Shown: in pieces, positions 21,690-64,000 of the stretch
How positions within the stretch are numbered: position 1 is the first letter of the stretch
Layout of the letters: every line of letters starts with the position of its first letter
Source of the DNA: Candidatus Bathyarchaeota archaeon A05DMB-5
GTDB lineage: Archaea; Thermoproteota; Bathyarchaeia; Bathyarchaeales; Bathycorpusculaceae
Assembly (NCBI GenBank): GCA_019685655.1
Contig: JABFQP010000001.1
Coordinates: forward strand, 186,001 to 250,000
Length of the DNA: 64,000 bases
Reading direction: 5' to 3'
Notes under the pieces: generated by a model
Told to the model about the DNA's origin: nothing
The model's database searches: none
The model's input: only the letters and a program-made list of their open reading frames with translations
Translations under genes and position numbers: made by a program

Positions 21690-22250
21690 ATGAGTTGCAA
21701 GCACTGCCATAATCAAGCAGTTTACACATGCAGTGTCTGCGGAAAACCACTATGCCCACAACACACCCGATTGCGAACAGTATGCCCAACATGCCAAAAG
21801 AAAACCACACAGAACTACACCATCACAATAGCAAAAACCAAAAAAGAAAAAGAGAAAATCCGAAAATTTGTAGAACACTTCTGGGGAGAACAAGAACAAC
21901 TAACATTTAACAGACGATTCATTGTCACCAAACTCCCAACGTACATTGCAAAAACACAAAACACCACCATAATTGTGGCATTAGGCATACTCCCAAAATA
22001 CCAAAACACAGGAATAGGAAAAGCACTAACCAAAAAAGTCGAAATAAAAGCCAAACAATCAAACAAAAAACAACTACTAGTTTCAACATCAAACGACGAC
22101 CTACCAGCATTAGCATTCTACCAAAAACTCGGCTTCCAAATCTACCAAGTAAAACCAAACGCCATAGCAGAAAAACACGGCAAAACCATAAAAGGAATAA
22201 ACGGAATCCCAGTAAGAGACGAAATAAGACTACGAAAAATCATCCACTAA
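21690..22250 (+). CDS. GNAT acetyltransferase with N-terminal zinc finger
   Basis: 186 residues. The first 40 contain a cysteine/histidine-rich finger (CKHCHNQ, CSVCGKPLCPQH, VCPTC) resembling a B-box or ZnF-B-box-like ring. The rest is a GNAT fold with the acetyl-CoA loop LPKYQNTGIGKALTKK and the terminal NDDLPALAFYQKLGF. Substrate unknown. The finger could target the enzyme to a protein or nucleic acid. The coding strand is unusually rich in A and C, encoding many Lys, Thr and Gln residues, and shares this composition with the plus strand of the following genes although they run the other way. Confidence 0.83.
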   Translation: MSCKHCHNQAVYTCSVCGKPLCPQHTRLRTVCPTCQKKTTQNYTITIAKTKKEKEKIRKFVEHFWGEQEQLTFNRRFIVTKLPTYIAKTQNTTIIVALGILPKYQNTGIGKALTKKVEIKAKQSNKKQLLVSTSNDDLPALAFYQKLGFQIYQVKPNAIAEKHGKTIKGINGIPVRDEIRLRKIIH

Positions 22251-22621
22251 ACAATACCACGTTCACGCCTAATCCCATCCAACACTTCCTTCGCCACAGA
22301 ATACTTACCAAACAACTCAGAAAGCCTTCCACAAGGATACTCCACACAAAAACCACAATTCTCAACCTTCTTCGCCCTACCACACTTCCTTATCCCACAA
22401 TCATTACAATACCAAAAAATACGCAAACTATCACTCACACAACCATCACAGTTAATATCCTCTAACCTATACTCCCGCCCATACTGCCTAGTAAAAATCT
22501 CAGCCACACGCCTCCGCTCTACATCATCATTCTTCTGTGTAGCAACAAAAACCGGACAATCAGAACACACAATCCCACAATAACCAACAAACTTACCCAA
22601 ACAAGCTCTCTCCAACACCAT
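22247..22621 (-). CDS. DUF3795 family cysteine-rich protein
   Basis: 124 residues. YCGIVCSDCPVFVAT is the DUF3795 signature, followed by CDGC, WYCNDCGIRKC and CGFCVEYPC, giving more than ten cysteines likely to bind zinc or an iron-sulphur cluster. Function is not known for the family. It overlaps the convergent GNAT gene by four bases at the stop codons and is followed upstream by a 23-base gap to the HemK-like gene, with which it may be transcribed. Confidence 0.85.
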   Translation of the reverse strand: MVLERACLGKFVGYCGIVCSDCPVFVATQKNDDVERRRVAEIFTRQYGREYRLEDINCDGCVSDSLRIFWYCNDCGIRKCGRAKKVENCGFCVEYPCGRLSELFGKYSVAKEVLDGIRRERGIV

Positions 22622-22644
22622 ATTAAAAACATAAACAGATTAAC

Positions 22645-23259
22645 TTACCGCTTCGCCTCAACAAGCACCAACGTCTCAAAAAAGGGCAAATCACGCCTCG
22701 CAACAACACCGGCTTTCAACCCTTCCCTCGCAAAACCCTCCAAAGTTTCTTCAACCCCAGCCAAAGTAGACTGCATAAGCAACACACGCCCACCACGCCT
22801 AAGATAACTTGGCACTTCACAAATAAAACGGTCAATAACCCTCCTACCACTCTCCCCACCAGCCCAAGCACGCTCAATCCAAAACGCCCCTTCACTAACT
22901 TCAACAGGCAAATAAGGAGCATTAAAAAGAACCAAATCAAACTTCTCACATATCTTAAACGGCGAAAACAAATCACCCCGCACAAAAAACATTTTATCCA
23001 TAACCCCATTCAACTCAGCATTTTCCTTCGCACAACACACAGCATACGGGTTCACATCAACCGCAACAACACCAGACGCCTTCTCTGCAGCAATTATACC
23101 CAAAAAGCCACAGCCGGCACCTACATCAAGAACAAAATCACCCCGCCTAACAACCAAATTCTCAGCAAAAAGAAACGAATCCTCACACGGCTCATAAACA
23201 TTCTCCCAAACAGCAAAAACATAACCCCCAAAAAACACTTTCTTACACGCAAAACGCAT
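22645..23259 (-). CDS. HemK2/Mtq2-like class I methyltransferase (release factor type)
   Basis: About 204 residues from ATG 23259; an upstream frame reaches 23340 inside ksgA and looks non-coding. YEPCEDSFLFAE near the N-terminus, VLDVGAGCGFLGIIAAE and LFNAPYLP are typical of archaeal/eukaryotic Mtq2-type enzymes, which methylate the glutamine of the GGQ motif in class 1 release factor. The usual catalytic tetrad NPPY is NAPY here: Asn and Tyr are kept but the second residue differs. The start overlaps the end of ksgA by 17 bases. Confidence 0.82.
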   Translation of the reverse strand: MRFACKKVFFGGYVFAVWENVYEPCEDSFLFAENLVVRRGDFVLDVGAGCGFLGIIAAEKASGVVAVDVNPYAVCCAKENAELNGVMDKMFFVRGDLFSPFKICEKFDLVLFNAPYLPVEVSEGAFWIERAWAGGESGRRVIDRFICEVPSYLRRGGRVLLMQSTLAGVEETLEGFAREGLKAGVVARRDLPFFETLVLVEAKR

Positions 23260-24037
23260 TCGCCAACACTCCAAAATCTTCAGGCGCCAACTCCCTAATA
23301 CGCCTATCACCAAAAGGAACAACCATCCCAGAAGGCACACCCTTCAAAAAAACCAACACAGCATTCCTAACCTTCCTATTACGCTGCGTAAACAACAACC
23401 GCACCAACCGCCTGAACAAATCCTCATCCTTTAATTCGAACGGCTTAGGCTTTTTCGGCTTCAAACGCACAACAACCGAATCAACCCTCGGCTGCGGATA
23501 AAACATCCCCTTCGGAACATCATCCAACAACTCAACATCCACAAAATAATACGCAAAAACACTCAACCACCCATAAGCATCACTGCCCACAGAAGCCACA
23601 AGCCTATCCGCAAACTCCCTCTGAAAAACCAAAACTGCACAATCAAAATTCCTACTCAAAAGCCACAAAAACAAACGAGAAGAAATACGATAAGGAGGAA
23701 CAGAAACAACCTTATTAAACTCAGGAACCGCCACCTTAAGAACATCACCCTCAATAACTTGAACATTCACCAAATCCCTAAGCTGCTCACGCAAAACCCT
23801 AACAAGCCTCGCATCAAACTCAACAGCCAAAACACGACCACACTTACCCGCGAGAAAACGCGTCAAAAAACCAATCCCAGCACCAACATCCAACACTACA
23901 TCCCTATTACACACCACCGCATAATCAATCATCCGCTGAAAAATTGATGGCTCAACCAAAAAATTCTGCCCTAAATGCTTCTTCGGAAAAATCTGGTACG
24001 CCCGAAGCAAAAACTTCGTTTCAGCTAACAAGCTCAT
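23243..24037 (-). CDS. ksgA: 16S rRNA dimethyladenosine transferase (KsgA/Dim1)
   Basis: 264 residues. The N-terminal KKHLGQNFLV, AdoMet motif LDVGAGIGFLTRFLA (about 49-63), acidic EFDARLV, and C-terminal FYPQPRVDSVVVRLKP all fit KsgA/Dim1, which dimethylates two adjacent adenosines at the 3' end of small-subunit rRNA. Motif IV is odd. The usual N-[LI]-P-Y is VPPY here (VVSVPPYRISS, about 111-120), so the catalytic Asn is replaced by Val. This could reduce activity or reflect lineage-specific chemistry. Sits between HemK-like and DUF655 genes. Confidence 0.93.
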   Translation of the reverse strand: MSLLAETKFLLRAYQIFPKKHLGQNFLVEPSIFQRMIDYAVVCNRDVVLDVGAGIGFLTRFLAGKCGRVLAVEFDARLVRVLREQLRDLVNVQVIEGDVLKVAVPEFNKVVSVPPYRISSRLFLWLLSRNFDCAVLVFQREFADRLVASVGSDAYGWLSVFAYYFVDVELLDDVPKGMFYPQPRVDSVVVRLKPKKPKPFELKDEDLFRRLVRLLFTQRNRKVRNAVLVFLKGVPSGMVVPFGDRRIRELAPEDFGVLANAFCV

Positions 24038-24052
24038 ATTACCACAAATAAA

Positions 24053-24622
24053 CTATTGAACCCTCGTAAACAACCGATACTTGCTCTCGCCCGACAACTC
24101 CTCCAAAACACGTTTAGTAATCAACTTAACCGGATTAGGCAACTCCGTACGCTTCTGCAAATCATCAAAACTCTCAAAAGGCTTCTTCTCACGCTCATTA
24201 ATAACCTGCCACATATACTTCTTACCAATACCAGGAATCAACTCCAAAGCATGCATCCGAGGCGTTATAGCCCTCGCAGTATTAAAAAAGTTAACAAACC
24301 ACTTTTCACGATTCAAAACTATCCTACTAATAACCGCAGGAAGCTCCATCCTCGCAGCAGCCGTCAACTCCTCATAACTCACCCGCCCAATAATATACGT
24401 AATCTCCTCACGCGCATCCTTACCCACATAAACACGATCATGAAGCTTAAGCGTAACACCCTCCTTAGCTAAAGCCTCCAAAAGCGTAAAAAACTCCTCA
24501 CCTATCAACTGCACAAGCGCTCCCGCTCTGTAACCAGCCCTGCCTGTTGGACGAATCCCAGAACGCCCATGCGGCAAGAAATCTAAGACGTAAGCGTATT
24601 CCTCGTATCTTTTCTCCATCAT
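24053..24622 (-). CDS. DUF655 protein with helix-hairpin-helix motif
   Basis: 189 residues. EYAYVLDFLPHGRSG at the N-terminus is characteristic of archaeal DUF655. An OB-like middle (LKLHDRVYVGKD) is followed by a helix-hairpin-helix motif ELIPGIGKKYMWQVINER, suggesting nucleic-acid binding. DUF655 genes usually lie between RpoF and KsgA in archaea, as here, so a role in rRNA maturation or translation is often assumed but not shown. The coding strand is GT-rich. Confidence 0.88.
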   Translation of the reverse strand: MMEKRYEEYAYVLDFLPHGRSGIRPTGRAGYRAGALVQLIGEEFFTLLEALAKEGVTLKLHDRVYVGKDAREEITYIIGRVSYEELTAAARMELPAVISRIVLNREKWFVNFFNTARAITPRMHALELIPGIGKKYMWQVINEREKKPFESFDDLQKRTELPNPVKLITKRVLEELSGESKYRLFTRVQ

Positions 24623-24674
24623 GTTCGCCTTTATCTTACACTCTTTTTGCTTAAAAAATAGTTGCTAAGACAGC

Positions 24675-25022
24675 TCATTGAGGTTTTCGATGTTCATCCA
24701 AAAGGATGACTATAGCTTCCAACTTTGAAGTCTCAATAATCTTACGCCCAGCAGCAAGAAAAACCCTCAATTCATCAACACTCTTCGGCATACAGTTAAC
24801 TATCTGAACCGCTTCTTCCTCATCCAAACCAAACTCCTTCACAAGCTTCTCCACAAGCTTTCCAGCAGCCTCAGCATCCACCTTCGAAAACTTAGAAACA
24901 TAATCATAAGTGCGCCGCTGGAACTGATCCAGATTCTCCTCGCCAATAGACTCCAGCAACTTCTTAACTTCAGGAAGAGTAAGCTTCTTTTCCTTCTCGC
25001 TTTTTCCCGCCATCTCAATCAC
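24675..25022 (-). CDS. rpoF: DNA-directed RNA polymerase subunit F (Rpo4)
   Basis: 115 residues. LTLPEVKKLLESIG, RTYDYVSKFSKVDAE and AVQIVNCMPKSVDELRVFL fit Rpb4/Rpo4, which forms the stalk of RNA polymerase with Rpo7. The gene starts at GTG 25022 overlapping the L21e stop by four bases; an ATG four codons in is an alternative. The order L21e-RpoF-DUF655-KsgA is conserved in archaea. Confidence 0.94.
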   Translation of the reverse strand: MIEMAGKSEKEKKLTLPEVKKLLESIGEENLDQFQRRTYDYVSKFSKVDAEAAGKLVEKLVKEFGLDEEEAVQIVNCMPKSVDELRVFLAAGRKIIETSKLEAIVILLDEHRKPQ

Positions 25023-52730: not shown

Positions 52731-53210
52731 GTGAAGTTAAAAGAAAGCGTGCAATCATGGCTTACAAGTTCCTTAAACGACCCCGTTGTGAAAATACTCG
52801 CTAAAAATAGCCACTTAACAAAAACACAACTTGAAACACTGCTCATAGACATTTTATCCGAAAATATCGCAGGCAAACCGCTAAAATACGATGAAAAAGC
52901 CAATTTACGGCTAATGAAGGCAAAAATAAGTCGCGGAGCCTTCAACAGGACTTTAAAACAGGCAAAAGGAAATGTAATAAAAGCAATCTACACGGTACTA
53001 CTTTTAGGATATCTAGGAGTCTTTGAAACCACAACTTTAGACCCGTATTTAGAAATAGCAAACAAGTTACAAGAATACATTGACGCGTACAAGAACATAC
53101 CAAACAAAAGCGGAGAATTAAATGAGCACCTAAAAGTCATAGAAATCATAAGAGAAGAGCTTGAAACAAGCCTAAAACAGCTTTCAAACGCCTCGGAAGG
53201 CTTAGTGTGA
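52731..53210 (+). CDS. Conserved-looking hypothetical protein with a possible helix-turn-helix
   Basis: 159 residues from GTG, not assigned to a family. The central segment KAKISRGAFNRTLKQAKGNV looks like a helix-turn-helix, followed by a hydrophobic helix IKAIYTVLLLGYLGVFE. The N- and C-terminal parts are helical and polar. Its stop codon TGA lies inside the palindrome TGTGACGTCACA that begins the TGTGA motif array. It may therefore be linked to the regulation of the following gene, but no direct evidence for function exists. Confidence 0.65.
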   Translation: MKLKESVQSWLTSSLNDPVVKILAKNSHLTKTQLETLLIDILSENIAGKPLKYDEKANLRLMKAKISRGAFNRTLKQAKGNVIKAIYTVLLLGYLGVFETTTLDPYLEIANKLQEYIDAYKNIPNKSGELNEHLKVIEIIREELETSLKQLSNASEGLV

Positions 53211-53494
53211 CGTCACAAATCACACTAAAAAGTAACCTAACTTCTAGGGCGTGAAACCCAAAATCTTTTAGCCGAAGAAAACAGTTGGAAATTCGAAAAT
53301 AACCCATAATTAAGGCGTTTTATGGTTTCATAGCAACGATGACGTTTGGTGTGAGTGTTACAATAAACTGTGATGTGTGACGTCATAGGGGCATGGGATA
53401 TATGCGTAGAACCATAATCTTTAAATCTTTTATGGTAAAAATGTGATGTGTGATGCAACATGACTCAATCACACATAATCACATGTGAATCACA
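53206..53494. promoter_or_regulatory. Array of eleven TGTGA/TCACA motifs
   Basis: Motifs on the plus strand: TGTGA at 53206, 53350, 53369, 53376, 53442, 53449 and 53484; TCACA at 53213, 53220, 53469, 53479 and 53490 (some share bases). TGTGACGTCACA (53206-53217) is a perfect palindrome. TGTGATG occurs as tandem copies seven bases apart at 53369/53376 and 53442/53449. They flank a TATA-like TTTAAATC at 53420-53427 that should drive the coiled-coil winged-helix gene. This is a likely binding region for a dimeric regulator, possibly that gene's own product. Confidence 0.6.
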
Positions 53495-54219
53495 GAGGGA
53501 TTCTTCTGACTGACATTTTGTTAATTCTGGCGGGTATGTTGTCAGTTGCGACTGTAGGCGCTGCAGTTGAGTATTATAGGCAACTTCGTAGAGTTCAGAA
53601 AGAATATGAAAAGGCGCGAGAGGTTGTCGAAGACATTGTTCTGAGTTTTAATAGACAACTTAGACAAGAATCAGAAAAATTGGAGGCTGTTGCATATAAG
53701 GTTCATTCGGTTTCTTCAAAAAGCGACAGTGCCTTTAGCAAGGCAGAAAATGTTGATAAACAGTTACGTGTTTTAGAAACAAAGCTCAATGGCGTTGTAG
53801 AAGATAAGGATAAAGTGTTAACAAGACTAGAAGAGGTTGACAAGAAACTGTGTGATATTGTTGTGTCACATGAGACATTAAACACTAAAGTTTCTACCAT
53901 AGAAGAACAAGCTCGTCACTTCACTGCAATACCTGAAGCAAAAGTCGAGGCGGTAATACCAATAAAGAGAGACAAGGCTATGGCACCATTGACTGAAACT
54001 GAAATTGCTGTGTTGGAAATGCTTGCAATGGAAGGTTCAAAGACTGCTCCGGAGATTAAGGAAAGAGTTAAACTGAGCAGGGAGCATACGGCGCGGTTAA
54101 TGAAGAAGTTGTATGAGGAAGGTTATCTGGAAAGGGACACGAACAAGATTCCATTTAGATACAGTGTCAAGAAGGAAATGGAGAAACTTTTGAAAAAGAC
54201 AGAAAGCGAAGCAACGTGA
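53485..54219 (+). CDS. Membrane-anchored coiled-coil protein with C-terminal winged helix
   Basis: 244 residues from GTG 53485, or 237 from CTG 53506, which lies five bases after AGAGGGA; the GTG has no SD. A single N-terminal membrane helix (ILLTDILLILAGMLSVATVG) is followed by a long coiled coil to about residue 150 and a C-terminal winged helix (TETEIAVLEMLAMEGSKTAPEIKE, in outline EIAVLEMLAMEG then HTARLMKKLYEEGYLERD). Such a layout suggests DNA tethering to the membrane or a membrane-linked regulator. It is convergent with herA and ends two bases before it. Confidence 0.8.
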   Translation: MNHRGILLTDILLILAGMLSVATVGAAVEYYRQLRRVQKEYEKAREVVEDIVLSFNRQLRQESEKLEAVAYKVHSVSSKSDSAFSKAENVDKQLRVLETKLNGVVEDKDKVLTRLEEVDKKLCDIVVSHETLNTKVSTIEEQARHFTAIPEAKVEAVIPIKRDKAMAPLTETEIAVLEMLAMEGSKTAPEIKERVKLSREHTARLMKKLYEEGYLERDTNKIPFRYSVKKEMEKLLKKTESEAT

Positions 54220-56872: not shown

Positions 56873-57304
56873 TTATAGTATCTTTTGTTTAAGTGCGGCT
56901 TGAGGAACACTCAGCACCAGTTTATATTTTAAGCTGTTGGCTGCTCCCGTTTTCATGAGTATTCCTTTAGTTGTTAACCTTGTAAGATAAGTTGCCACGG
57001 TACTGAGGCATATAGGCTCTTTAAATTCTTGTTCGTAAACAGTTTGGATATCTTTTGAGGAGAACCACACAATAGGAAAATGCTTCTGAATTAACGTACG
57101 AACTTTTTCATATTTAGTGAGCCCGTTGCCAATACCTGCCGGATTGCTGCTTGGATTGGCTGGCTCGGTTGGCATCCCGCCTAACAGTTCCACCAAATCT
57201 AGAAGCCGCTGGGCCTTCTCTCTAGTTATTTGTCCCTCGAAGGCTACAGCATACTTGTTGCCTTCACTATCGAACACTTCAACGCGTATTTTTCTTGCAG
57301 GCAT
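56873..57304 (-). CDS. Small winged-helix-like DNA-binding protein
   Basis: About 143 residues from ATG 57304; the frame extends to 57391 but those 29 residues are unlike protein. The N-terminal half (KIRVEVFDSEGNKYAVAFEG) is beta-rich. The C-terminal half has a winged helix: HFPIVWFSSKDIQTVYEQEF, then LSTVATYLTRLTTKGILMK. The family is not recognised. It lies between nurA and the candidate origin. Its upstream region holds a 14-base palindrome and TTCACA repeats, suggesting autoregulation or origin-linked function. Confidence 0.65.
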   Translation of the reverse strand: MPARKIRVEVFDSEGNKYAVAFEGQITREKAQRLLDLVELLGGMPTEPANPSSNPAGIGNGLTKYEKVRTLIQKHFPIVWFSSKDIQTVYEQEFKEPICLSTVATYLTRLTTKGILMKTGAANSLKYKLVLSVPQAALKQKIL

Positions 57305-57314
57305 TGGTAGCATG

Positions 57315-57328
57315 CACCACATGTGGTG
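57315..57328. promoter_or_regulatory. 14-base perfect palindrome upstream of the winged-helix gene
   Basis: CACCACATGTGGTG reads the same on both strands. It lies eleven bases upstream of the preferred start of the winged-helix gene (57304) and is followed by two TTCACA words at 57329 and 57344. This placement is right for an operator bound by a dimeric regulator, perhaps the gene's own product. It would also overlap any longer reading of that gene. Confidence 0.45.
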
Positions 57329-57502
57329 TTCACAGTTTAACAATTCACAAGTTATAGGTGTTATGGTTAAAATGAAAAAAGAAAAAGTCATTTAAAGGAG
57401 GTAAATAGGGAAAAAAAAGGATATTTTCATTTCTTTTAGCTTTACAGGTTTCACAAAGTTTCAAAATAGTGAAAACGGTAAAGAATGTAGGGGAAGTGTT
57501 GT

Positions 57503-57514
57503 TTTCCAGTGGAA
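57503..57514 (-). promoter_or_regulatory. ORB-like element 1
   Basis: On the minus strand it reads TTCCACTGGAAAACAAC, sharing the TTCCACTGGAAA core of the other two boxes but without the G run. It is inverted relative to them, giving the expected inward arrangement around the AT-rich stretch. Weaker than boxes 2 and 3. Confidence 0.5.
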
Positions 57515-57925
57515 GGATAGAGGTGGTTTATTCACAAAGCAGAAACATAAAAAAGTAAATATTTTATGAATAGAGACTGAAAAAGCTGCATTATTAAGTT
57601 AATTTCACAATACTTTCACAAAACTGTGAAGAATAAGCGTAAAACAAAGGAAAACAATCTTAAGTCTACACATCAACAAACGGCATGAGAGGATTTATCT
57701 TGTTTAGTAGAGTTTACTACTCTTAAGCAATAACTTACTGACACCCCTCTGTTTCCTTTGGAATGCATTACTGTGGGTTTGAAAAAACTTGTGCTAAAAT
57801 AAAATTTTTAAGTTGTTATTTAAAATGTTTAATAATAATGATTATAATTCTTTTTTACATTTCATCTTTCAGAGTATATTTCTTTTCTTGAAGAAATCAA
57901 CATTACTTATTAAAAATAAATCAGA

Positions 57926-57950
57926 TTTCCACTGGAAACTTTGGGGTGAC
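57926..57950 (+). promoter_or_regulatory. ORB-like element 2
   Basis: TTTCCACTGGAAAC followed after three bases by GGGG and TGAC. The dyad core plus a downstream G run is the archaeal origin recognition box pattern bound by Orc1/Cdc6 (winged helix on the dyad, AAA+ domain near the G string). It is the best match in the region. Confidence 0.65.
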
Positions 57951-58040
57951 TGTGTAAAACACACATATTTATTTTAGCGCCATCTTTAATTTTTAGAAAT
58001 GTTATTGTTTAATTTAGTTTTTTGTACGGTAGAGCTTATT

Positions 58041-58061
58041 TTCTCCACTGGAAAATGGGGC
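58041..58061 (+). promoter_or_regulatory. ORB-like element 3
   Basis: TTCTCCACTGGAAAATGGGG carries the same core with a closer G run. It lies about 30-50 bases upstream of the orc1/cdc6 start, so Orc1 binding here could also regulate its own gene. Confidence 0.6.
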
Positions 58062-58091
58062 TTTACCTTTGAAACAGTGTGAGGGGATGAA

Positions 58092-59342
58092 ATGGACGAA
58101 GCAGACATACTTGACAGCGTATTCCAAAAATTTGTTACGAACGCAAAAATCTTTAAGGACAGAGAAGTGCTACGCCACGACTATCTGCCAAATAGACTGC
58201 CTCACCGAGAAGAACAGATCCGGCGGCTTGGGGAAACCGTAGCTCCTGTTCTTAAAGGAGCAAGAAGTTCCAACGTTTTAATCTATGGAAAAACGGGAAC
58301 AGGGAAGACAGCCGTAACAAAATATGTGCTTAGCCATCTTGAAGTTAAGGCTAAGGAATTTCATGCCCCTGCAAGATTTTGTTACTTGAATTGCAGAATG
58401 GCGGGTTCAGAGTATCGTATTTTTGCTGCGTTATGCCAAAGTGTGGGCGTAGCTGTTCCTTTTACTGGTCTTTCTGTTGGGGAAGTTTTTGATAGATTTA
58501 AGAATGGCTTGGATGCCTCGGGGATAATGTTAATTATAGTTCTGGATGAGGTTGACACTTTAATAAAGGCGCATGGTGACAGTGTTCTTTACGAGTTAAC
58601 ACGAATAAATGAAACGTTAACTAAAAGTAAAGTATCAATTGTTGGCATATCTAATGATCTTCGGTTGAAGGAGTATCTTGACCCTCGCGTTTTAAGCTCA
58701 CTTAGTGAAGAAGAAATTGTTTTCAAACCATACGATGCAAGTGAACTGCGAAACGTTCTGTTTGAACGTTCAAAGCTGGCGTTTTTTGACAATGTCCTAT
58801 CAGATGCAGCATTAAGTCTCTGTGCTGCTTTGGCAGCTGCAGAACACGGTGACGCTAGGCGTGCGTTGGATTTGTTGCGTGTTGCCGGAGAAATTGCAGA
58901 AAGACAAGGTGCAATGGTAGTCGTTGAGGATCATGTTAGGGAGGCAGAGAAAAGCATCGAGCATAACCGTGTGGTTGAAACTCTTAAGAATTTAACTTTG
59001 CATTCTAAATTGGTGCTTTTGAGTGTTTACCATTTAACTAAAGTAGACGCTCAGCGTGCGATAACTGGTGAAATATATGATGTTTACAGTGAACTCTGCG
59101 GGGAGCTAGGGCTTGCGCCATTGACACAACGACGTTTAGGCACACTGGTAAGCGAACTGGATTCTATGGGCTTGTTAAACACCAAGGTCGTAAGTATGGG
59201 AAGATATGGACGCACAAAAAAGATTAGATTAGAGATAGCCCGCAGTAGTATTAGAGATGTTTTTGCTAATGACGGTAGGCTCGGGCGATTGGTTGAATAT
59301 GAAGCAAAATGCCTTACAAAACATGCCAGTGGTCGGAGTTGA
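58092..59342 (+). CDS. cdc6: Orc1/Cdc6 replication initiator
   Basis: 416 residues. The AAA+ core has Walker A GKTGTGKT (about 66-73), Walker B LIIVLDEVDTL and sensor-1 IVGISNDLRL; the C-terminal third is a winged helix (LVLLSVYHLT, VSELDSMGLLNT). GAGGGG lies five bases before the ATG. It binds origin boxes and loads MCM. It starts 31 bases after the last ORB-like element. No second orc1 gene or MCM is in the window. Confidence 0.96.
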   Translation: MDEADILDSVFQKFVTNAKIFKDREVLRHDYLPNRLPHREEQIRRLGETVAPVLKGARSSNVLIYGKTGTGKTAVTKYVLSHLEVKAKEFHAPARFCYLNCRMAGSEYRIFAALCQSVGVAVPFTGLSVGEVFDRFKNGLDASGIMLIIVLDEVDTLIKAHGDSVLYELTRINETLTKSKVSIVGISNDLRLKEYLDPRVLSSLSEEEIVFKPYDASELRNVLFERSKLAFFDNVLSDAALSLCAALAAAEHGDARRALDLLRVAGEIAERQGAMVVVEDHVREAEKSIEHNRVVETLKNLTLHSKLVLLSVYHLTKVDAQRAITGEIYDVYSELCGELGLAPLTQRRLGTLVSELDSMGLLNTKVVSMGRYGRTKKIRLEIARSSIRDVFANDGRLGRLVEYEAKCLTKHASGRS

Positions 59343-63082: not shown

Positions 63083-64000
63083 TTAGAAAGAAAGTTTTTC
63101 TACTTTTTGTGGAGCTTTGCTCAACGAAACATTTTCCTCTATTCTTAATTCACGGGAGTAGTGAACTTCGCCGTCTATGCGGCAATGAGATTCGATAACA
63201 ACATTTTCGCCGTAAACATTCCTTGCGTAGGCTCCTTCTCTCATTAAAATTTGTTTTCCAAAGAGATCTCCCACACTAGCATTTTTGTTGATAACAACTC
63301 GCTCTGCTCTTATTGGCCCGTGAACCTTGCCTCTATGGCCGATCTCCACAAAACGCGCTGTCACGCCTTCCGTTGTTCTTATCGAGCCACCAACTTCCAC
63401 ATGGTCTTCTACCGTAACTTTTTTTGCACTTAATGCTCCGCCCACTTCGATATCTTTTGCGGTAATTTCCCCGCCTATTTCGACTATGCCTCCTACTTCC
63501 AATTCACTAGAAAGCTTCAAAGATTTGCCAACTTCCAATCTGCCACCTACATCGATTTCCACGCCTTCTGCTGCTCCAGTTATCTTTACTTTTCCGCCAA
63601 CATCAATATCTTCAAAATTTAGGTCGCCTTTAACTTCTAATGAGCCTCCTACATCTATTTTGCGTCCCTTGTTTTTGTTGGAGAGACAGGCGATTCCGCC
63701 AACATCGATTTCTTCAAATTCTAATTGGTCATCTGACTCAAAGCTTCCGCCGACATTTATTTCGTCTATTTTTCCTCCTTTTACTTTGGCGGTTCCTCCT
63801 ACCTCAAGTGTTTTGATGTTACTTTTTGATTCAATGAGGAGTCTTCCTCCCACGTCAACGTCGGCTGCTTCGACTTCGCCTTTGGCTCTGAAACTTCCGC
63901 CGACATCTATGCCTTCTGCCTTTAGTGCGCCTTCTACGTTTAGGCTTCCACCCACATCTATTTTTTCTGCGACCAAGTCTTTGCTGACATGTAATGCCTT
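63083..64000 (-). CDS. Bactofilin-like polymer-forming protein with IDVGG repeats (partial)
   Basis: At least 297 residues. The frame is open to the right edge without an ATG or GTG, so the real start is outside the window. A short unit of about 20 residues built around [IV]-[DE]-V-G-G is repeated at least ten times (KIDVGGSL, GIDVGGSF, DVDVGGRL, TLEVGGTA, EINVGGSF and on). After about residue 200 the pattern gives way to GHRGKVHGPIRAERVVI and similar rungs. This is the pattern of a right-handed beta-helix as in bactofilins. A cytoskeletal or scaffold role is inferred. Confidence 0.75.
   Translation of the reverse strand, partial: KALHVSKDLVAEKIDVGGSLNVEGALKAEGIDVGGSFRAKGEVEAADVDVGGRLLIESKSNIKTLEVGGTAKVKGGKIDEINVGGSFESDDQLEFEEIDVGGIACLSNKNKGRKIDVGGSLEVKGDLNFEDIDVGGKVKITGAAEGVEIDVGGRLEVGKSLKLSSELEVGGIVEIGGEITAKDIEVGGALSAKKVTVEDHVEVGGSIRTTEGVTARFVEIGHRGKVHGPIRAERVVINKNASVGDLFGKQILMREGAYARNVYGENVVIESHCRIDGEVHYSRELRIEENVSLSKAPQKVEKLSF

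Follow-up and report, generated by a model that had tools for sequence, protein, structure and literature searches.

A probable oriC1-type replication origin beside orc1/cdc6 in a bathyarchaeal genome

Described archaeal origins and the bathyarchaeal locus

Sulfolobus oriC1 is served by Orc1-1, contains the boxes ORB1-3, a DUE and the ucm/UBP module, and adjoins an Orc1-1-type gene (PMC12141716). The ubp gene is described as having been acquired relatively recently in Desulfurococcales and Sulfolobales, and the authors of this 2025 study raise the question of analogous origin-binding factors in divergent archaea (PMC12141716). The oriC1 of the haloarchaeon Haloarcula hispanica lies beside cdc6 and combines inverted ORBs, which end in a G-string, with an AT-rich stretch and a G-rich inverted repeat located directly inside the ORBs (PMC3936714). 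Pyrococcus has a single oriC, directly upstream of cdc6 (PMC4010727). No description of a bathyarchaeal replication origin was found in the open-access literature, to which the search was confined (subscription papers and preprints lay outside it).

The region considered here is the whole intergenic gap (57305-58091, no strand assigned) between two divergent genes in the window, that is, the entire 64-kb stretch of DNA analysed. Its sequence makes it very probable that this gap is a chromosomal replication origin of the oriC1 type, recognised by the Orc1-1-type initiator encoded alongside, and that replication would be initiated within it. An earlier note on this DNA had proposed a chromosomal origin; the proposal is supported by the boxes of relatives, by weak skew minima and by a box cluster that is the only one found in the genome, but the anatomy given for it has to be corrected. 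The origin is of a known kind. The parts that are new are the layout of boxes A, B and C, fixed across the lineage, an element composed of GAGTATA and a dyad, and a conserved winged-helix neighbour; for the latter two, no description was found in the open-access papers searched.

Like Sulfolobus oriC1, the locus adjoins an Orc1-1-type gene and contains three ORBs; an inverted pair of these encloses an AT-rich stretch with a conserved non-ORB motif inside. By contrast, the non-ORB element is here GAGTATA plus a dyad, situated near ORB C rather than midway, the B-C spacing is 163 bp, and a mini-ORB is present at the orc1 promoter. The Sulfolobus ucm itself (AATTATACAAA, a query taken from an oligonucleotide in PMC12141716) is absent from the AT-rich stretch at up to one mismatch. 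With haloarchaeal oriC1 the locus shares the inverted ORBs, the terminal G-string, the AT-rich stretch, the position beside cdc6 and an inverted repeat inside the ORB pair, but the repeat is here AT-rich, covaries and lies about 50 bp from ORB C. A haloarchaeal locus (L024) inspected as a check of polarity yielded no box by the pattern used. The likeness to Pyrococcus oriC concerns the layout, with the origin directly upstream of cdc6.

Boxes, AT-rich stretch and orc1

A pattern joining the core to the G-string (TTCCANNRGAANNNNNGGGGTG, two mismatches allowed) has exactly three matches in the window, where 0.24 would be expected: 57504-57525 (+), 57742-57763 (−) and 57927-57948 (+). The distal box, ORB A (TTCCAGTGGAAGGATAGAGGTG), has a degenerate G-string and the same orientation as C; its plus strand ends in GAGGTG, and the counterpart in a genome of the same genus (G001), which reads TTCCAATGGAAGGATAGGGGTG, ends in GGGGTG. 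ORB B (TTCCAAAGGAAACAGAGGGGTG) is the inverted box and matches the extended pattern perfectly, and ORB C reads TTCCACTGGAAACTTTGGGGTG. The core searched with one mismatch gives six matches against 1.26 expected, a number reached in none of 100 shuffles, the near-palindromic core being counted on both strands. A few TTCACAAA-like repeats were also seen by eye near 57330-57630.

The three core sites listed in the earlier note exist (TTCCAGTGGAA at 57504-57514, TTCCACTGGAA at 57927-57937 and CTCCACTGGAA at 58043-58053), one to two bases away from the positions it assigned to them (57503, 57926 and 58041). The first was thought to be inverted, which is wrong: the minus-strand reading then gives CCCC, and it is the plus strand, here and in G001, that yields the box. 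The sole inverted box is B, which had been overlooked because its core (TTCCAAAGGAA) deviates from the one searched. A layout in which A is inverted and A/C or A/D flank the AT-rich stretch is thus ruled out; the stretch is real, but the pair flanking it is B and C. As to the GGGG said to follow two of the sites, that at 57927 belongs to a full ORB, while that at 58043 stands two bases too close and the site does not score as one.

The genome, of 98.6% completeness, totals 1.51 Mb over 11 contigs and has two matches to the strict 22-bp ORB pattern, at B and C. Two mismatches raise this to six matches, and only the three origin boxes lie within one mismatch. A position weight matrix was built from 75 boxes of relatives, with the window left out. 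In the first 400 kb of contig C1 it assigns 37.2 bits to ORB C, the best site, then 31.8, and 23.7 to ORB A, the third best, with the next site at 12.6; on the main contig of G001 the orthologous boxes score 37.2, 33.7 and 33.4 bits and the next site 14.5. These scores are partly circular, the matrix having been trained on relatives of the same loci, and independent support comes from the fixed-pattern search and a reversed control: the strict box is present in 89 of 257 genomes of the class, and the reversed pattern in none. The cluster is the only one found in the genome.

Searching for the boxes upstream of orc1 in relatives, a check the earlier note had suggested, was carried out on 98 non-redundant loci with at least 720 bp of upstream sequence each. 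Order and orientation, A(+) B(−) C(+), are fixed in 94 of them, with median spacings of 165 bp (B-C) and 270 bp (A-B); called A and B boxes are missing in 4 of the 98. Of 61 genomes, 59 yielded relatives of Orc1 itself, a few at no more than paralogue level. Four genomes from beyond the order (G061, G069, G201 and G212) have a B(−)/C(+) pair adjoining orc1, with the G-strings facing outward. In two others (G090 and G091) an ORB pair with its AT-rich stretch adjoins the winged-helix gene, and orc1 is about 3 kb off. A separate arrangement is seen at locus L192 (G127:C29), where a strict ORB match lies about 2 kb upstream of orc1 with no winged-helix gene within 1.5 kb, which suggests that the origin region has taken up an insertion or was misassembled.

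The stretch between B and C (57764-57926, no strand assigned) is 80% AT and is a putative duplex-unwinding and MCM-loading zone. The most AT-rich 80, 100 and 163 bp of the 64-kb window fall within it, as do the window's least stable 60, 100 and 160 bp; it contains no run of four G or C, and exceeds its flanks in AT content in nearly all relatives in which B and C were called. A conserved AT element (TTTAATAATAATGATTATAAT, 57828-57848, no strand assigned) was recognised inside it by eye in an alignment of 47 relatives. Orc1 would most likely bind at ORBs A, B and C, of which the inverted pair B/C, its G-strings pointing outward, brackets the 163-bp easily melted stretch; MCM helicases may then be loaded onto this stretch, giving two outward forks.

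The gene directly downstream of the gap (58092-59342, +) encodes an orc1/cdc6 initiator of the Orc1-1 type, as the earlier note had stated. The product exceeds the cut-off of NCBIfam NF001625, contains Pfam Cdc6_C and Cdc6_lid, and retains the C-terminal GRYG(R/K)T stretch. Its best PDB relatives are Sulfolobus solfataricus Orc1-1 (2qby_A, 371 bits) and Aeropyrum pernix ORC1 (2v1u, 357 bits), with Orc1-3 at 207 bits, and the closest named records, 73% and 65% identical, are proteins of Candidatus Bathyarchaeota MAGs. Only one paralogue was found (G000:C4:210638-211741, L076; 31% identical). No ORB-like site is present in the approximately 16 kb examined around it, and a second ORB-type origin at this paralogue is rejected on that ground. 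A 32% identical Orc1/Cdc6-like protein occurs in a MAG filed under the bacterial Phycisphaerae (L025, JAGOLX010000088.1), probably on an archaeal contaminant contig.

Upstream of orc1, a conserved promoter-like block (TTTTTTGTACGGTAGAGCTTATTT, 58018-58041, +), a putative part of the promoter, precedes a mini-ORB, box D (CTCCACTGGAAAATGGGG, 58043-58060, +), at −49 of the gene. Box D is degenerate, its GGGG being the one displaced by two bases. Of 105 relatives, 73 carry the TTCCANNNGAAA core, at up to two mismatches, between −75 and −20, where 6.2 would be expected; its commonest position is −46 to −50, and the TTTTTTGTACGGTAGAGCTTATTT block precedes it. The box is likely an autoregulation site through which Orc1 would tune its own expression.

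The GAGTATA-dyad element

The conserved non-ORB element of the melting zone (TCATCTTTCAGAGTATATTTCTTTTCTTGAAGAAATCA, 57862-57899, +) consists of GAGTATA (57872-57878) and an inverted repeat (57878-57885 / 57890-57897). GAGTATA occurs inside the B-C interval of 80 of 103 loci at up to one mismatch, exactly in 61, and in all but one of the 80 it is located 49-59 bp before the ORB C core. A stem of at least 6 bp follows it in 48 of the 80 (10.4 expected). The arms of the dyad covary: in 44 sequences, which include non-pairing ones and leave out genus g11 and family f9, six of seven pairs are changed on both sides, and doubly changed cells number 22 against 5.0 in shuffles and 4-9 in slid versions. 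The motif GAGTATATTTC-N8-14-GAAATCA has 18 matches in 17 of 90 genomes of the family, most of them just upstream of orc1 positions, and its reversed control none. In the genus g11 loci (L168-L197) the dyad has decayed to AT repeats, yet GAGTATA for the most part survives, so that the element's two halves may differ in role. Beyond the order, strong hairpins of unrelated sequence lie within B-C in G201 and G212 (z −2.4 and −4.3), and the B-C interval of G091 has a similar TTACC...GGATGCT sequence with no clear hairpin.

The element may act through protein binding at the dyad, as a DNA hairpin or within a transcript. Its candidate counterpart in Sulfolobus is the ucm, and it would probably serve as a binding site or hairpin for a later step. 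That origins of Bathyarchaeia require it as a lineage-specific element, to which a dedicated protein binds (possibly the winged-helix neighbour) or which acts as a DNA hairpin, is a tentative reading with a little less than an even chance of being right; if true, it would place a counterpart of the ucm/UBP module outside Sulfolobales and Desulfurococcales. It is also possible, though the balance lies somewhat on the other side, that the element is a promoter, an operator or an RNA hairpin of a transcript (the orc1 leader or that of the divergent gene) and no part of an origin: GTATATTT resembles a TATA box, compensatory changes fit an RNA hairpin, and the window copy alone is unsupported as a strong DNA hairpin (z −0.69), so that the case for pairing is comparative. 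A transcript-borne hairpin finds no counterpart in Rfam, neither for the element nor for any RNA family in the gap. An origin role is favoured because the distance to ORB C is near-constant and because the element persists where orc1 is not adjacent, the B-C interval of G090 and G091 still showing, by eye, a TTACC...GGATGCT sequence with a dyad-like part although orc1 is some 3 kb away.

The question raised for Sulfolobus, of analogous factors in divergent archaea, is directly testable here, since the element and the winged-helix neighbour are both conserved. Because the layout is conserved too, it can serve to call origins directly in hundreds of uncultured genomes and to anchor estimates of growth rate from metagenome coverage, and it provides sequences with which Orc1 binding can be assayed in vitro.

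Skew, rival readings and neighbouring genes

Skew was drawn on stretches and not on a full circle, the genome being in 11 contigs. On the main contig of G001, where orc1 starts at 1,081,288, cumulative GC skew is lowest at 1,089,661 and cumulative keto skew at 1,086,047; in the first 400 kb of C1 the GC minimum is at 235,692 and the detrended keto minimum at 242,609, with orc1 at 244,092. The minima, looked for as the inflection that the earlier note had asked for, lie within about 10 kb of the region in both but are a weak signal. With gene strand controlled, third-position keto skew at the predicted origin differs between leading and lagging genes (permutation p=0.001), and none of 225 circular shifts reaches as high; GC3 skew by itself, corrected for gene strand, falls short of significance (p=0.2). 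Corrected keto skew places the origin of G001 best at 1.17-1.32 Mb, a broad range, whereas 1.08 Mb is predicted. Skew is therefore weak and coarse in position, and is supporting rather than decisive.

Two other readings of the whole locus bear on this evidence. The boxes might be a mere operator for orc1 autoregulation, with box D at the promoter and chromosome replication starting elsewhere. Box D does adjoin the conserved promoter-like block, and archaeal Orc1 proteins can be transcription regulators, according to PMC9738581. Yet an operator does not call for two inverted boxes spaced 165 bp apart about the window's least stable DNA, or for a distal box at −600. The ORB pair and AT-rich stretch of G090 and G091, moreover, have stayed with the winged-helix gene and not with orc1, no other box cluster was found from which replication might start, and the skew minima fall at this locus; the operator is accordingly a most improbable account. 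It is also very unlikely that the region, a genuine origin by sequence, is dispensable or dormant and that replication proceeds from another origin or by another route. Origin- and Cdc6-independent replication is reported for Thermococcus kodakarensis (PMC5663688), and the weak, coarse skew would suit dormancy. Against it, the boxes have retained their succession, orientation and core throughout an order and partly through the class, which requires continued selection; the genome has yielded one box cluster, and its second orc gene is without boxes. An active origin recognised by Orc1 remains the preferred reading.

On the far side of the origin, the divergent neighbour (56873-57304, −) encodes a small protein of 143 aa, whose C-terminal half is winged-helix-like with a weak match to Pfam Penicillinase_R; its structure model is of low confidence (pLDDT 54). 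In 94 of 95 relatives with enough sequence the gene occupies this place and strand. It is single-copy in the searched genomes where it was found, and its product is a candidate origin-associated factor. Further neighbours named in the earlier note were confirmed, namely the HerA-like protein, the large and small PolD subunits, DUF99 (Pfam Endo_dU) and DUF429. Its NurA has a weak NCBIfam match (E 0.061) and no PDB relative. For two genes upstream of herA (52731-54219), distant relatives have ORFs of similar appearance by eye that adjoin the winged-helix gene (L082, 166-666; L080, 293-1006), a hint that the surroundings of the origin are conserved.

Elsewhere in the window, strand asymmetry is extreme at 22000-25000 (GC skew about −0.5, AT skew up to +0.4), where the genes are ordinary methyltransferases with G/T-rich coding strands (KsgA-like, 23243-24037; small-domain, 22645-23340). 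A bactofilin-like protein with repeated IDVGG strands is encoded at 63083-63976 (−).
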